DNA of 64,000 nt from Polymorphobacter megasporae (GTDB lineage: Bacteria; Pseudomonadota; Alphaproteobacteria; Sphingomonadales; Sphingomonadaceae), in the NCBI RefSeq assembly GCF_018982885.2, contig NZ_CP081849.1, forward strand, positions 496,001-560,000. The letters run 5' to 3'. The notes beneath the pieces were generated by a model. That model worked only from the letters and a program-made list of their open reading frames with translations, did not search any database and was not told the DNA's origin. The position numbers were made by a program, and so were the translations under genes. Every line of letters starts with the position of its first letter. Position 1 is the first letter of the stretch. Of the stretch, positions 458-28,091 are shown piece after piece.

Positions 458-2941
458 TCAGAACTTGAAGCCGGCGCGGACGTAGAATTCGCGCGGTCGG
501 TTATAGGTGCCGCCGACGTAGCCGATGCCGGCCTGGTCCTGCCCCGAAATTATGAAGCGCTCGTCGGTCAGGTTCGTCACGCCGGCGTCGACATGGTAGT
601 TCTTCGCCGCCGAGCGGTATGAGATCAGCGCTCCGACGACGTTGGTCGCCGGCGAGATTAGCTCGGGGGTGTTCTCGGCGTCGCGGGCTATGCTCGACTT
701 GAACGCATAGTCGACGTGCGCATCGACCGATGCGCCCGAGGGCAGCGGAATGACATAATCCACGTTGGCCGAGGCCGCGTAGTCGGGGGTGTTGACGAAC
801 TTGTCGCCGAGGTTTGTGCCGGCATCCTTCTGCGTGTAACGCGCGTCTATATAACTGAAGGTCGCCGCCAGCGTCAGCGCGGAGGTCGGAACCAGAACCA
901 GTTCGGCCTCGATACCTTTGATCTCGGACTGTGCGGCGTTGATCGTGATCGGCGAAACGCCCGAATACACGGTAACTTGCAGGTCCTTGTATTTGGTGTA
1001 GTAGCCGGCGAGGTTGGCTTGCAGCAGTCGGTCGAAGAACTGCCCTTTGACCCCAACCTCGTAGGTATCGGCTTTTTCCGGATTGAACGTCGGCGCGGCG
1101 AGGATCGGGGTTGTCGCCCGCGTCGTCCAGCCGCCCGCCTTGTAGCCTTGGCTGAACGTCGCGTAGGTCAGGATCTGGTCGGTCGCCTGGTAATTGACGC
1201 CGGCCTTAAATGAGACGTTGCTGAAACTGAGGTGATTGTCCGTCGTCGGAAAATACAGTGTCGGGTCAGTTGGATCGGGATGAAGCGATAGTGGATAGCC
1301 GAGCTTGTAGGCGAGGCTGTTCAGGTCGCGCTGACCGCCCTGGAATTCCTTCTCATCGCGCGTGTAGCGGACGCCGCCGGTCAAACCCAGCTTGTCGGTA
1401 ATCTTGTAGTCGGCCTGAGTGAATGTGGCGTAACTTGTTGTGTGGAATGTGTTTGGTCCATCGATCTGGAGCAGGCCGCCCGCAAAATGAACGTAATCGG
1501 TCAGGTCGCCCTGCTCGTGAAAGTAATAGAGACCGGTGACCGTCTTCAAACGGCTGTCGAGGAAGTCACCAAGCAGCTGGACCTCCTCGCTCTCCTGCTG
1601 CTGGCGCATGGTGAAGGCATGGTCGCCCATCGGGATCGGCGAGCCGTCGACGTCGAGCGCGAAGCGGCTGTCGAGGTTGCGATACGCGCTGATCGACTTG
1701 ACCGCGAGGGTGTCGGTCAGTTGCGCGTCAAGCGTGCCGGAGAAGCCGAACGTCTTGATCTTTGAATAGCCCGCGCCGGTGGCATACGAGGTGTCGATCC
1801 GCGGCGAGAAAAACCGGCTGTCGAAAACCAGATGGTTGTTGTTCGGGTCGGCGTCGACGTTGACCCCGCCGAGCGGGGGTAGCACGACGTTGGTGAACCC
1901 CGGCACCGTCGCCGCCGGCAAACCGCGCGGCGTGTTGCAGATGGCGTTTAGCGGCGTTGTCGCCAGGACGGCGGCGGGTGTCGAAATGCAGGTATTATAG
2001 ACATCCTTCAGACCCGGCTTGAGGGCGAGTAGCTGGCTGCCGGTCGACTGGTCGTCGTCGTTGGTATAGTCGCCGGTCAGGCGGAAGGTCACGTCGGGCG
2101 CGATCTTCCACTTCAACTTCACGCGCAAATTCTGATCATTGTAGCCGCCGGCCGCTTGATAGGTCGTCGAGTCTGGCCGGACGAAGGCCCCGGAATCGTC
2201 GACGTAGTTGCCGGGAAACTTCAGGAAGTGGAAATAGCCGTCGGCGTGCTTCGCCGAGAACGACACCTGCGCCAGCAGTTTGTCGTCGATGATCGGAATG
2301 TCGACCGAGCCGCGGACATCGACACGATTATACGAGCCGTAGGTGACGTCGCCCGCCCCGCTGAAGGTGTTGCCGGGGTCGCGGGTGACCACGCTGATCG
2401 CACCGCCGATCGTGTTGCGGCCGAACAACGTCCCCTGCGGGCCCTTGAGGATTTCGACATGGTCGAGATCGAGCAGGTCGACAACCGCGCCGACGGTGCG
2501 GGCGTAATAGACGCCGTCGACATAGACGCCGACGCCAGGATCGAGGTTGAAGGCGAAGTCGTTCTGCCCGATGCCGCGGATGAATGCCGAAAGAACCTGG
2601 CTCGAACCGGAGAAGGGCGAGGTCCCGACGATCTCGACCGACGGTGCAAACTTGCCGAGCCCGGCGACGTCGGTGATCCCCTTCTGCGCCAGCGCCTCGG
2701 GCGTGAACGCGGTGATCGCTATCGGCACGCGCTGAAGGTTTTCCGACCGCTTCTGCGCGGTTACGGTGATCTCCTCAATCTGCCCGCCCGAGCCCGGGCC
2801 GGGCGTACTGCCGACGGCCGTCGCCTCCGGCGGGTTCGCGGCTTGCGTCGCCACCTGTGCTCCGACCGGCCATGCGGCGGTGACAAGAAGCGACGCGCCG
2901 ATGCGCGCGGCGATGATGACGCGGTTCGAAACGATGGACAT
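458..2941 (-). CDS. TonB-dependent outer-membrane receptor
   Basis: Ligand-gated outer-membrane channel for TonB-energised uptake, about 827 residues. The start at 2941 is preferred over an upstream in-frame ATG because a GGGGGA ribosome site sits 8 bases before it and a signal peptide follows directly (cleavage near PVGA-QVA). After a spacer come the TonB box ([10 protein letters not shown]), the plug domain with VYVDGVYY and [14 protein letters not shown], then a 22-strand-type barrel ending in an aromatic residue (AGFKF). Length is normal for the family, and the sphingomonad-type plug sequence suggests an organic substrate rather than a siderophore. A sigma-54 type promoter lies about 50 bases upstream and the divergent V4R activator is next door, which points to induction by an aromatic compound (inference). 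Confidence 0.95.
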
Positions 2942-2991
2942 TGGACGATCCCCCTGATGGCTGGGCTTCTTGACGAGCTTGAGCACTGCCT

Positions 2992-3007
2992 TGCACCGAT
3001 CGTGCCA
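2992..3007 (-). promoter_or_regulatory. sigma-54 type -24/-12 promoter for the TonB receptor-SDR operon
   Basis: Read on the minus strand this is TGGCACGATCGGTGCA. It fits TGGCAC-N5-TTGCW with the GG and GC dinucleotides at the required spacing and one mismatch (G for the first T of the -12 box). It sits about 51 bases before the receptor start, and the adjacent gene encodes a sigma-54 activator. Confidence 0.75.
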
Positions 3008-3098
3008 ACTCGGGTCGCTCCTACGACGGACACCGCGGAGCTGGACATTTTGGGTTTTAAGGCGTCAGTCTACAGACGGTCGCAGGCCGGGTTTTGGG

Positions 3099-3118
3099 TC
3101 GAACTGTCGACAATTCGA
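3099..3118. promoter_or_regulatory. 20-bp near-palindrome, candidate upstream activating site
   Basis: TCGAACTGTCGACAATTCGA pairs at 9 of 10 positions per half. It lies about 92 bases upstream of the -24 element of the leftward promoter and ends 15 bases before the activator start, so one site could serve both activation and autoregulation. A weaker dyad (GTCT-AC-AGAC) lies at about 3068-3077. Binding by the 3134 gene product is inference. Confidence 0.5.
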
Positions 3119-3133
3119 CGGGGGAGAGAAAGT

Positions 3134-4837
3134 ATGAAGGTTGGATCAGGCGCTGCTTCGCTTGTCGTGCCGCCTGATCTGCCACGTATCTCCGACTTGG
3201 CGGCGACGCTCCATTTCGCTCCCGAGCAGGGTCACATCTGGCTCGCCGGGAGGCGGATGGTTCTTGTCCACGCGCGGACCATGGGCATCGTCCGACGCGA
3301 GGTAATCAACGCCGTCGGCTACGACCGCGCCCGTGCGGTCTTCACTCGGCAGGGATACGAGGCCGGGGCGATGGACGCCGACGTTGCCGCCAAGGTCCGC
3401 TCCAACGACAGCGTCTACGACGCGTTCTCGGTCGGGCCTCAGCTTCACGCGCTGGAAGGCGCGGTCCTCGTCGAGCCGATCACGGTCGACGTCGATGTCG
3501 CAAACGGGCGTTTCTATGCCGAGTACAGGTGGCGTCACTCGTCGGAATGCGCCGAGCACGTCACGGCGTTCGGCATCGGGCAGGCTCCCGCCGGATGGGG
3601 ACAGATCGGCTATGCCAGCGGCTACGCCAGCGTCTATTTCGGCCGGCCGATCGTCTACCGCGAGGTCGAGTGCATCGCCATGGGCCATGACGAATGCCGC
3701 ATTGTCGGCAAACCGGCGGAGGCCTGGGACGATGCTGAGCCCGATCTCCGCTACATGAGGAGCGAACAGCTTCACACTGCAACAGACGCGATCCGCACAG
3801 TTCGTGAGGGGGACGCGAAGGCCGCCGACAATCGATGGCGGGTCGTCGGCGCGTCGTCGGGGTTCAACACCGCCTTCGATATGCTGCGTGACGTGGCCGA
3901 CACCGATGCGCCGGTACTCTTCCAGGGTGAGAGCGGCGTCGGCAAGGAGATGTTCGCACGCAACCTCCACGCGATGGGCAAGCGCGCCGAAAAACCATTC
4001 GTCGCGGTCAATTGCGCCGCAATCTCGGAGACGTTGATCGAATCTGAACTGTTCGGCGTGGAACGGGGGGCCTTCACCGGTGCCACGGTGAGCCGTCCCG
4101 GCCGGTTCGAGCGGGCCGAGGGCGGCACGCTTTTCCTCGACGAGATCGCGACGCTGTCGCTGATCGCGCAGGCGAAGCTGCTGCGGGCACTCCAGGAGGG
4201 CGAGATCGAACGCGTCGGCGATACGCGGGTGCGGTCGGTCGACATCCGGCTGGTCGCCGCGACCAACGTCGATCTGCGCGAAGCGGTCGCGAAGGGGGCG
4301 TTCCGCGCCGACCTGTTTTACCGGATCAACGTCTTCCCGCTGCGCATACCGCCGCTGCGCGACCGTCGGGCGGACATACCGCTGCTGATGGATCATTTTC
4401 TTTCGGTCTTTCGTACCCGCTACGACAAGAAGGTATCAGGCTTCGACGAACAGGCCGTGTCGGCGATGCTCAGCTACGATTGGCCGGGAAACGTCCGCGA
4501 ACTCGAAAACATGGTAGCGAGGGGCGTCATTCTCGGCCGCAGGGGCGAGCCACTGCGCGTCCACCACCTATTTACGAGTGGAGAGCGGCTCGGCGACCAG
4601 CGCTATCGGCTCGGCGCGGACGGACGCGTCCGATCTAGTGGACATCATGGCAATCGGTCACCGGTCGCAATCGCCGCGCTTATGGATGCGGGACTGACGA
4701 TGGACGACGTCGAGCGTGATCTGCTGGACGAGGCCTTCCGCCGATGCAGCGGCAACAGGTCCGCCGCCGCGCGTCTGCTCGGTGTTTCAAGGGCCCAATT
4801 TAATCACCGCTACACCCAGGCTTCGAAGGCGCGATAA
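3134..4837 (+). CDS. sigma-54-dependent activator, XylR/DmpR type with V4R sensor
   Basis: One-component activator of 567 residues. An XylR-N/V4R sensor (about 20-200) is followed by an AAA+ core with Walker A GESGVGKE (about 266-273), the sigma-54 contact loop GAFTGA (about 312-317) and Walker B LFLDE (about 334), then a Fis-type helix-turn-helix at the C-terminus. Members such as DmpR, MopR and XylR bind phenols or toluenes. The V4R signature QIGYASGY is present. By recalled MopR numbering, three zinc ligands are present (Glu177, Cys180, Cys188), but the fourth position holds Gly154 in place of Cys. The ATG at 3134 follows GGGGGAGAG; the reading frame extends further upstream without conserved sequence. 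It probably controls the divergent TonB-SDR operon. Confidence 0.93.
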
Positions 4838-5325
4838 GTCACGGGTAGCTGTAGCGACGCTAAATGATCCGCCGTATTCTCCGCGCAAAGGGAAAAAGTT
4901 GGCTGCCGAAACTTCTCGAGAAGTGCATCGACATGTGTTCGGTCGATCGGGCATGTGCCCGCCGGAAGCTCGACGCCGTCCGTAGACGAATGTTCGACGA
5001 TGGATATACGACATCTCATCAATCGGTCCTATTCGCGTTGCTTCACTTACGTGAACGGAAATCGGCTTCCGGGTGGTCAATCAGCAAATGCAAATGACCG
5101 AATGTGGGGGTTCTCGACGGCAGCTCCGGCTTAACAGAGGTCCGCTTTCGCTATCTGATCACCTGGAAGCCATCAGGCGGCTACCGGCCCCGAAGTGCCG
5201 AAAGTGTTCACATCGCAATTATCATTGCCGTCGCAAGCGTTCGCGGCGGGCCGACGCTCGCCGCGTTAGCAGACTATCAAATTTGCGTACTTGCGTCTTC
5301 CTGCAAGCTGCGCATCATCCTCCAA
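4838..5325. other. intergenic, no gene recognised
   Basis: Short open frames occur on both strands but none shows a recognisable family, ribosome site or signal peptide. The AraC gene frame extends upstream to 5104 without family-like sequence. Confidence 0.5.
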
Positions 5326-6117
5326 ATGAAAAGAGGATCATTCGCGATCCAGCGCGGCAGCGGCGGTCCCACGGCGGTCGAGGCGCATTCTGGACAGAGC
5401 TTCGACCGCCACTCGCATGATGAGTACGGGATTGGCGTCATGCTCGCGGGGGCGCAGCGGTCGTGGAGCGGACGTGGAACCGTCGAAGCCATCGCCGGCG
5501 ATGTTATCACTGTCAATCCAGGCGAGGTCCACGACGGCTCGCCGATCGGGGAAAGCCGTCGTTGGGCGATGCTCTACGTGGCACCCGGTCTGATGAAGAC
5601 CATTGCTTTGGATATTTACAACGGCGATCGCGGAGACGTCGTATTTTCCAATCCGGTGGTGCGTGATAGTCGCGCCGCGGGGCGCTTTGCTGCGGCGTAC
5701 GCTTCGATAACCGACAGGGAGGAGATCGATGCCGCTGATGAGCGCCTGACGTTGCTTATCGCGGGAATGATCGACTATTCGCCGCGCCCGATATCGGTCG
5801 CGTGTTCATCAACTGCGCGTGCCAAGGCGAGGATCGATGACGATCCGGCCGGAGATCATCCATTGGACGCTCTGGCCCAAGAAGTCGGAACCGGCCGCTT
5901 TCAGATGTTGCGTGGTTTCGCTCGCCTCACGGGACTAACGCCGCACGCCTATGTCGTACAGCGCCGACTCGACCTCGCAAGATTAATGCTCCGGCAAGGT
6001 GTAGGACTGGCTGACGCGGCAATCGGCGCCGGGTTCGCAGACCAGAGCCACTTTCACCGGGCATTTACGCGGCGATACGGCCTTACGCCCGGCAATTTCG
6101 CGGCGGCAATGCGTTAA
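5326..6117 (+). CDS. AraC family transcriptional regulator
   Basis: DNA-binding regulator of 263 residues. The N-terminal half is a cupin-like effector domain (HSHDEYGIGVMLAG, then NPGEVHDG, typical of AraC-binding cupins). The C-terminal 95 residues form the double helix-turn-helix, with GRFQMLRGFARLTGLTPHAY for the first and IGAGFADQSHFHRAFTRRYG for the second, the most conserved AraC signature. The ATG at 5326 is chosen because the cupin starts soon after; the ribosome site is weak and the frame is open upstream, so the start is uncertain. It precedes a GNAT gene by 70 bases on the same strand, which could be its target. The ligand cannot be inferred. Confidence 0.9.
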   Translation: MKRGSFAIQRGSGGPTAVEAHSGQSFDRHSHDEYGIGVMLAGAQRSWSGRGTVEAIAGDVITVNPGEVHDGSPIGESRRWAMLYVAPGLMKTIALDIYNGDRGDVVFSNPVVRDSRAAGRFAAAYASITDREEIDAADERLTLLIAGMIDYSPRPISVACSSTARAKARIDDDPAGDHPLDALAQEVGTGRFQMLRGFARLTGLTPHAYVVQRRLDLARLMLRQGVGLADAAIGAGFADQSHFHRAFTRRYGLTPGNFAAAMR

Positions 6118-10016: not shown

Positions 10017-11625
10017 TCAGGCTTGGAAGTTCCACGGCATGAGCTGATCGAGGTTCTGGCTGGAGTGTCCGCGGGCAAGGCGCTCGAGGGTGTCGGTGAG
10101 CCAGGCGAGGGGATCGACGGCGTTGAGCTTGGCGGTCTCGATGAGGCTGGCGATGACGGCCCAGTTGTCGCCGCCGTCGTCGGAGCCGGCGAACAGGGCG
10201 TTCTTGCGGTTAAGGGCAATGGGCCTGATGGTCCGCTCGACGGTGTTGCTGTCCATCTCAACGCGGCCGTCTTCGACGAACAGCGTCAGGCCGGTCCGTC
10301 GCGAGGTAGCGTAGCGGATCGCTTCGGCCAGCTTGCTCTTGGCGCTGACCAGGGGGAGCCGGGCGGTGAGCAGTCGGAACAGCGCGTCGACGATCGGCTT
10401 GCTCTTCTCTTGCCGCAAAGCGCGACGGGCTTCGGCGTCCTTCCCGCGGATCTCGTCCTCGATGGCGTAGAGCGCCTTGATCAGCTGTAGTGCCTCGGTG
10501 GCCGTTGGTGAGGCGTCGGCCCTGGCGAGCTCGAAGAACTTGCGGCGCGCATGGGCCCAGCAGAACGCGAGCGCCACGTCATTGCGGCGGCCGAGCTTGT
10601 TGTAACCGGCATAGCCATCGACCTGCAGGATGCCGCTGAACCCGGCGAGATGTGCCAGTGGCCGCTCGGACTTGCGGTCGGGCGCGTAGATGAAGGCCAC
10701 CGCCGGCGGATCGGTGCCGCCCCATGGTCGATCATCGCGGGCATAGGCCCAGATCTGCCCGGTCTTGGTGCGTCGTCGTCCTGGATCGAGCACCGGTGCC
10801 GTCGTCTCGTCGGCGAACAGCCTTGGTCCCCGCTTCAGGACAGCAAGCAGGTGATCCCGCAGCGGCGTCAGCCACCAGGCGGCGCGGCCGGTCCAGTCTG
10901 CCAATGTCGAACGGTCAAGGTTGACGCCCTGACGGGCGTAGATCTGGGCCTGGCGGTAGAGCGGCAGATGATCGGCGTACTTGGAGACCAGCACCTGCGC
11001 GACCAGCGCGTCGGTCGGCAGCCCGCCTTCGACGATCCGCGGCGGTGCCGGCGCCTGCACGACCTGGCCGTCGCAGGCACGGCACGCATAACGCGGACGG
11101 CGGGTCACCAGCACCCGGAAAGCTGCCGGCACCACGTCGAGGCGTTCGGCCACATCCTCGCCGATGGCATGGAGATCACCGCCGCAGCAGGCACACTGCT
11201 TGCTGTCGACGTCGATCAGTTGCTCGACGCGTTCAAGATGCGCCGGCAGCTGGCCGCGGTTGGTACAGCGCTGCTTCTCGGCGCGCGCGTTGGGTGAACT
11301 GATCGTATCCAGCTTCGCTTCCACCTTGGCGAGGGCGATGCCGAGATCCTCGAGCACCAGGCTCGAGCTGGTCGTCGTCAAGCTTCTCCGAGCGGGGACC
11401 GAACCGGTGACGCATGAAGGCGGCAATGATGCTGTTCAGCCGAGCGATCTCGGCATCGGCTTCAGCCTGGACGACGGCGTTCTGCTCAGCTTCGGCGCTA
11501 ATGCGCGCGACCTCCGCCGTCGCGTGCTCCACCTTCGCCATGAGCCGCGCCGTCTCGGCGTGGGCGGCGACGATCATGGCGCGGAGCACCTTGGGATCGT
11601 CGGGAAGATCAGCTACGGCGAGCAT
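10017..11625 (-). pseudogene. tnpC: IS66 transposase TnpC, frameshifted
   Basis: DDE transposase of IS66. The start at 11625 opens a coiled-coil N-terminus that runs to RHRFGPRSEKLDDDQL. Near 11361 an extra base (GAGCCTGG for GAGCTGG) throws the frame, and the remaining 450 residues continue in another frame from LVLEDLGIALAKVEAKLD. That part carries the zinc-binding region (CACCGGDL, CRACDG), the DDE core (LFADETTAPVLDPG, LQVDGYAGYN, CWAHARRKF) and the C-terminal NTVERTIRPIALNRKNALFAGSDDGG signature. Apart from the shift the gene is complete. Confidence 0.88.
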
Positions 11626-26997: not shown

Positions 26998-27928
26998 GAG
27001 CCTGAACGAAAAGTAGTTGAGCGATACCAGTAGGTTGTGATTCACCGTCGTTGTCGAGACGATAGGAGAAGAACTTGCCTTGGACTGATACCGCTCGCCG
27101 TCAGCATATGCGCAAGGGGGGGCGCTATCCAAGCGATTTACGGGATGCGGAATGGGCGTTGATCGAGCCGCTGTTTCCGGCAGCCCGCAGCGGCGGGCGT
27201 CGTCGCACGACCTGCCTTCGGGCGGTGATGGATGCGATCATGTATATTGCGTCGAGCGGTTGCGCCTGGCGGATGCTGCCCAAATGCTTTCCGGCGACGT
27301 CGACAGTGCGCGGCTATTTCTACAGCTGGCGGGATAGTGGGCTGCTGACGACAATCAACCACTTGCTGGTAATGGCAGCACGCGAACAGGCCGGCCGCGA
27401 GGCCTCACCCAGTGCTGGCGTTATCGACAGCCAATCGGTCAAAACAACGGAAAGCGGCGGAATTTGCGGCTATGACGCCGGCAAGAAGGTGAAGGGCCGC
27501 AAACGCCATATCATCACCGATACCTGCGGCTTTCTGGTGTTTATCCTGGTCCATGCCGCCGACATTCAGGACCGCGACGGCGCTGTCGATGTCCTCAAAG
27601 CCATCCGTTTCCGTTTCCCGTTCCTGCGCCATGTGTTTGCCGATGGTGGCTATGCCGGTGACAAACTCAAGGCCGCGCTTGAAGGCCATGGCAGCTGGAC
27701 CCTCGAAATCATCAAGCGCTCCGATACCGCCAAGGGCTTTGTGCTTTTGCCCCGCCGTTGGGTTGTCGAGCGGACCTTCGCGTGGCTGGGCCGCTGCCGA
27801 CGTCTCGCCAAAGACTGGGAGCGATCCATCGAAAGCGCCACGGCATGGGCAACCATCGCCAGCATCCGAATGCTCACACGCAGAATCGCAAGGCTCTCAA
27901 CTCATTGATGTACTTTTGAATCGGGCTC
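26998..27928 (+). mobile_element. IS5 family insertion sequence with TTA target repeats
   Basis: Imperfect terminal repeats begin GAGCCTGAACGAAAAGTA on the left and GAGCCCGATTCAAAAGTA inward from the right. The 3-bp repeat TTA flanks both ends (26995-26997 and 27929-27931), as expected for IS5 groups that duplicate TNA. The single transposase gene is intact. The right end lies 147 bases upstream of the sigma-54 box of the next PEP-CTERM gene. Confidence 0.92.
27075..27908 (+). CDS. IS5 family transposase
   Basis: DDE transposase of 277 residues. YPSDLRDAEWALIEPLFPAA opens the DUF4096-type DNA-binding part. The catalytic Asp lies in VIDSQSVKTT, followed by GYDAGKKVKGRKRHI; the second Asp lies in VFADGGYAGDK, and the Glu follows in [20 protein letters not shown]. 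The start is TTG 27075, supported by AGGAGAAG eight bases upstream; ATG 27108 is the alternative. The frame is complete, so the copy may be active. Confidence 0.92.
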   Translation: MPWTDTARRQHMRKGGRYPSDLRDAEWALIEPLFPAARSGGRRRTTCLRAVMDAIMYIASSGCAWRMLPKCFPATSTVRGYFYSWRDSGLLTTINHLLVMAAREQAGREASPSAGVIDSQSVKTTESGGICGYDAGKKVKGRKRHIITDTCGFLVFILVHAADIQDRDGAVDVLKAIRFRFPFLRHVFADGGYAGDKLKAALEGHGSWTLEIIKRSDTAKGFVLLPRRWVVERTFAWLGRCRRLAKDWERSIESATAWATIASIRMLTRRIARLSTH

Positions 27929-28075: not shown

Positions 28076-28091
28076 TGGCACGGAGCTTGCT
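28076..28091 (+). promoter_or_regulatory. sigma-54 promoter, perfect match
   Basis: TGGCACGGAGCTTGCT matches TGGCAC-N5-TTGCW at every position, 39 bases before the ATG of the PEP-CTERM gene at 28131. PEP-CTERM genes in other proteobacteria are controlled by RpoN with the PrsK/PrsR pair, which fits. Confidence 0.88.

Follow-up and report, generated by a model that had tools for sequence, protein, structure and literature searches.

A predicted sigma-54 switch between a DmpR-type regulator gene and a TonB receptor operon in Polymorphobacter megasporae

Sphingomonads carry many TonB receptors whose cargo is unknown. In Sphingobium sp. SYK-6, 17 TonB receptors are induced by lignin-derived aromatics (PMC6874591). 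The locus described here raises the question of how one such receptor gene is switched on in Polymorphobacter megasporae, and by which kind of signal. The whole stretch of DNA that was analysed, called the window, comprises 64,000 nucleotides of a 4.9-Mb genome (G000:C2:496001-560000). Positions 2942-3133 are the control region between a divergent gene pair, the receptor gene reading leftward and a regulator gene reading rightward. The reading preferred here, with a probability of roughly 0.85, is that the protein encoded from 3134 (the 3134 protein) is a DmpR-type sensor which acts from a 16-bp operator together with a sigma-54 box, making the leftward TonB operon one that is switched by phenolics.

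Table. Features of the control region and adjoining genes; positions are those of the window unless prefixed by C2
Feature	Position	Strand	Sequence	Basis or remark
Sigma-54 -24/-12 promoter (predicted)	3007-2992	-	TGGCACGATCGGTGCA	Sequence, genome counts, conservation
Operator (predicted upstream activating site)	3105-3120		TGTCGACAATTCGACG	Top hit of a motif from relatives, window excluded from training
22-bp dyad of the sequence-only reading	3098-3119		GTCGAACTGTC/GACAATTCGAC	Pair count, shuffles; overlaps operator
Weaker overlapping operator-like 16-mer	3097-3112		GGTCGAACTGTCGACA	Second best in intergenic stretch
Candidate weak second operator	3063-3078		CGTCAGTCTACAGACG	Exactly 42 bp from 3105-3120
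Activator, DmpR/MobR/XylR type	3134-4837	+		Domain, structure and alignment matches
TonB-dependent receptor, first gene of target operon	458-2941	-		Domain search and sequence
SDR, coniferyl-alcohol dehydrogenase family, 5' part	1-434, on to G000:C2:495667	-		Family cut-off
Vanillin-dehydrogenase-like ALDH	C2:494300-~495670, outside window	-		Structure-database match
MFS transporter	C2:493030-494289, outside window	-		Follows the ALDH in the operon

The sequence-only reading had proposed a sigma-54 box with a single mismatch ahead of the receptor gene, and this box is real. Compared with TGGCACRNNNNTTGCW it differs in one position, a G in the -12 element where T is usual. The genome encodes one sigma-54 gene (rpoN), and the pattern TGGCACRN5TGCW has 34 matches genome-wide as against 10 for the reversed pattern. 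A chance origin of the box, with the TonB gene transcribed from some other promoter, is very improbable. The mismatch in the -12 element and a chance expectation of about one match of such quality per 64 kb would fit this explanation, but a box that has no more than one mismatch and points away from the regulator gene is found in 27 of 34 regions upstream of homologous regulators (a count that includes the window itself and regions that are not all independent, because some are from close relatives), while shuffled regions give such a box at a rate of 0.003 per region. A sigma-54 promoter, the feature looked for in the target operon of a DmpR/XylR-type activator, is thus present as a sequence element. 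The transcript of the TonB gene is predicted to start near 2981, with a leader of about 40 nt; the receptor ATG at 2941 has an AGGGGG ribosome site ahead of it, and an alternative upstream GTG at 2986 precedes the predicted start. Among 30 sigma-54-like boxes of the same genome (L147-L176), 11 precede ORFs with a VPEP-type PEP-CTERM tail and two further ones, including that at window 28076-28091 (+), precede near-variants of this tail; an RpoN-controlled PEP-CTERM gene is known elsewhere (PMC9850573).

The 3134 protein contains the XylR_N (PF06505) and V4R (PF02830) domains, both scoring above the Pfam cut-off, followed by a sigma-54 AAA+ domain, in which GAFTGA and Walker A are kept, and a Fis-type HTH (PF02954). 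The best-scoring NCBIfam model is MobR (NF041906) with 554.9 bits, which is below its curated cut-off of 999, and identity to DmpR is about 50% over 453 aligned residues. Foldseek matched the predicted sensor domain, whose mean pLDDT is 84, to the sensors of PoxR, MopR and DmpR, with the PoxR phenol-sensor structures within ~1.1 A. His105 and Trp133 align with the His and Trp pair that holds the phenol hydroxyl in DmpR (PMC7264223). The proposal of a divergent XylR/DmpR-type activator facing a sigma-54 TonB promoter is thus backed by the domains, by the conservation of the box and by an operator that was found without using the window. A full-length regulator is absent from five same-genus genomes, and a simple scan found no sigma-70-like promoter for the regulator gene. 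Downstream of the activator gene, window 5104-6117 (+) encodes an AraC-type regulator with an AraC-like ligand-binding domain. ORFs resembling transposases, judged by eye, were seen at window 10017-11426 (-; IS66 type) and 27075-27908 (+; IS5 type).

A near-perfect dyad of 20 bp had also been described about 92 bases upstream of the box and just before the activator start. The dyad is there, separated from the box by 91 bases (edge to edge) and lying 14 bases ahead of the regulator ATG at 3134, but its size is 22 bp and the centre of the conserved operator lies about 4 bp away. Ten of its 11 pairs are matched and one is unmatched. When the intergenic stretch was shuffled 3000 times, a dyad as good arose in 2 of the shuffles, and the full 22-bp pattern is unique in the genome even when 3 mismatches are allowed. 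When 15 stretches between box and regulator were searched by expectation maximisation for a palindrome of 16 bp, the motif obtained was TGTNGAATATTCNACA; its log-likelihood was 80.7, compared with 23-28 in eight shuffled sets. A model trained without the window had its top match of the 64 kb at 3105-3120 (13.15 bits, the next being 10.2), a score that the shuffled intergenic stretch reached in 0.15% of trials. Because the motif from the relatives picks this site blind, the operator is placed about 4 bp to the right of the dyad, the right half being common to both, and the 22-bp dyad was dropped as the exact operator. Looser operator-like 16-mers are present elsewhere in the genome.

The window has one clear operator; many relatives carry pairs and the closest relatives have two. 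Upstream enhancer sites of the DmpR/XylR family are often paired. The spacing within a pair is 42 bp in four relatives (L095-L097 and L136) and 31-33 bp in seven more. The weak candidate at 3063-3078 has the spacing of the closest relatives, and 6 of its 8 pairs are symmetric, a degree of symmetry that 0.7% of the 16-mers in the window show; with motif ranks of 803 and 2679 among ~64,000 positions it was left as a weak candidate and not taken as a full second operator. The overlapping 16-mer at 3097-3112, which ranks 65 in the window and 44 with a close-relative matrix, is possibly a third half-site. The short distance from the dyad to the regulator start codon and the lack of a clear second operator in the window would also be compatible with a site for another regulator, or one that serves in autorepression of the 3134 gene alone and not as an enhancer of the TonB promoter. 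This is improbable, since the operator motif recurs in relatives on the DNA that separates a sigma-54 box from the gene of a DmpR-type regulator, 10-52 nt from the start codon, and is often paired like the enhancer sites of the DmpR family.

Similar intergenic DNA was not found in the family genomes searched, except for one short marginal match. With no similar intergenic DNA in the same-genus genomes, the footprinting therefore rests on diverged regions. A genome from another family of the same order (G454) has a regulator of 55% identity beside a receptor (58%), an SDR (50%) and an ALDH (41%). Its intergenic region contains a one-mismatch box, and TGTAGAATATTCTACA occurs there twice in perfect form, at a spacing of 42 bp. 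The conservation that the sequence-only reading had called for in orthologous regions is therefore seen in G454, where the receptor and the promoter are retained together with a perfect pair of operators; the opposite outcome, a retained promoter with the palindrome lost, did not appear there.

In the mechanism that these elements suggest, the 3134 protein would be a one-component sensor-activator of the DmpR type and would bind the 16-bp palindrome. The V4R domain would sense a phenolic compound, and the AAA+ ATPase would open the sigma-54 RNA polymerase held at the box. The opened promoter would then drive the leftward operon of TonB receptor, SDR, vanillin-dehydrogenase-like ALDH and MFS transporter. 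Promoter, operator, domains and operon, with their conservation, are read from sequence and comparison; binding of the operator and activation by the 3134 protein would follow by analogy with DmpR (PMC7264223) and MphR (PMC3063778). More speculatively, the same site could repress the regulator's own gene, for which its position 14 bases before the ATG would be suitable.

The operon content suggests what the signal might be, and this is the least certain step of the model. The SDR passes the family cut-off for coniferyl-alcohol dehydrogenases, and the best solved relative of the ALDH is vanillin dehydrogenase 9ihb (693 bits). The operon probably serves the uptake and the alcohol and aldehyde oxidation of vanillyl- or coniferyl-type aromatics, and the inducer would be a para-substituted methoxyphenol such as vanillyl alcohol, vanillin or coniferyl alcohol. 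The inducer is not directly readable, because the relatives control different enzymes. The closest regulators (~60% identity) are divergent to genes including a flavoenzyme of the 4-cresol dehydrogenase/vanillyl-alcohol oxidase family, with a P450 nearby, while more distant relatives are divergent to TonB receptors of ~43% identity with VanA-type Rieske demethylases nearby. That the operon imports and oxidises some other phenolic, for example a salicylaldehyde-like or cresol-like one, is somewhat doubtful but has an appreciable chance: the ALDH scores nearly as well on salicylaldehyde dehydrogenase 6qhn (683 bits), and the 60%-identical regulators adjoin 4-cresol-dehydrogenase-like genes, but the family assignment of the SDR and the demethylases near the more distant relatives favour methoxyphenols. 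At a distance of about 11 kb from the window, a bacteriorhodopsin-like gene adjoins a beta-carotene 15,15'-dioxygenase gene (L134:4844-6923; G000:C2:482844-484923).

In a phylogenetic tree of 40 sequences, a branch with good support (100/97) separates 16 regulators, that of the window among them, from the rest. All 16 have Gly at the position of the DmpR zinc ligand Cys151 (Gly154 in the window protein, codon at window 3593-3595), and all 16 have a Cys at position 139 (codon at 3548-3550) that is found in none of the 24 others. The other three zinc ligands are kept in the 3134 protein (E177, C180 and C188). The zinc site of three Cys and one Glu at the DmpR positions is consequently not matched, the fourth position being Gly154; we take this site to be a detail of DmpR-type phenol sensors that is not required of the wider family. 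Cys139 may replace the lost ligand, a relocated ligand being the simplest reading of the paired change. Whether the sphingomonad-centred DmpR-like clade (16 regulators of one origin with a moved zinc Cys), together with a near relative in another family, uses its distinct 16-bp operator in a sigma-54 regulon for lignin-aromatic uptake, with many members driving TonB receptors, appears evenly balanced.

Genomes can be searched for the combination of sigma-54 box and 16-bp operator to pick out receptors controlled by phenolic sensors, and the cargo of such receptors can then be guessed. For the rebuilding of the zinc site in phenol sensors, the paired Cys change offers a direct test case, with a bearing on biosensor design.

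The phenol-responsive sigma-54 activators DmpR/CapR (Pseudomonas), MopR/MphR/MobR (Acinetobacter) and PoxR (Cupriavidus) have the same domain order as the 3134 protein, which resembles DmpR and PoxR also in its sensor fold and its phenol-positioning His and Trp. XylR of the TOL plasmid is likewise an enhancer-binding activator of aromatic catabolism and is known for negative autoregulation (PMC3469447), but has Tyr in place of the phenol-positioning His (PMC7264223) that the 3134 protein has. For MphR (PMC3063778) and DmpR (PMC7264223) the sigma-54 promoter of the divergent operon has palindromic sites upstream, and the layout here is alike, with a palindromic site upstream of the sigma-54 promoter of a divergent operon. 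In contrast to the DmpR group, the target here is not a phenol hydroxylase but a set of genes led by a TonB receptor, for uptake and alcohol/aldehyde oxidation; the operator is TGTNGAATATTCNACA, and Gly stands in place of the DmpR zinc ligand Cys151, a new Cys being present at 139. A literature search found no paper in which a sphingomonad TonB receptor is linked to a regulator of the DmpR type. A counterpart of the receptor is DdvT of Sphingobium sp. SYK-6, a sphingomonad TonB receptor for a lignin-derived aromatic that is linked to its catabolic genes (PMC6874591); DdvT is under the MarR-type repressor DdvR, whereas the receptor here would be under a sigma-54 activator. As judged from the sequence, the layout of the switch is of a known kind, and the operator sequence and one zinc-site Cys depart from the textbook examples.
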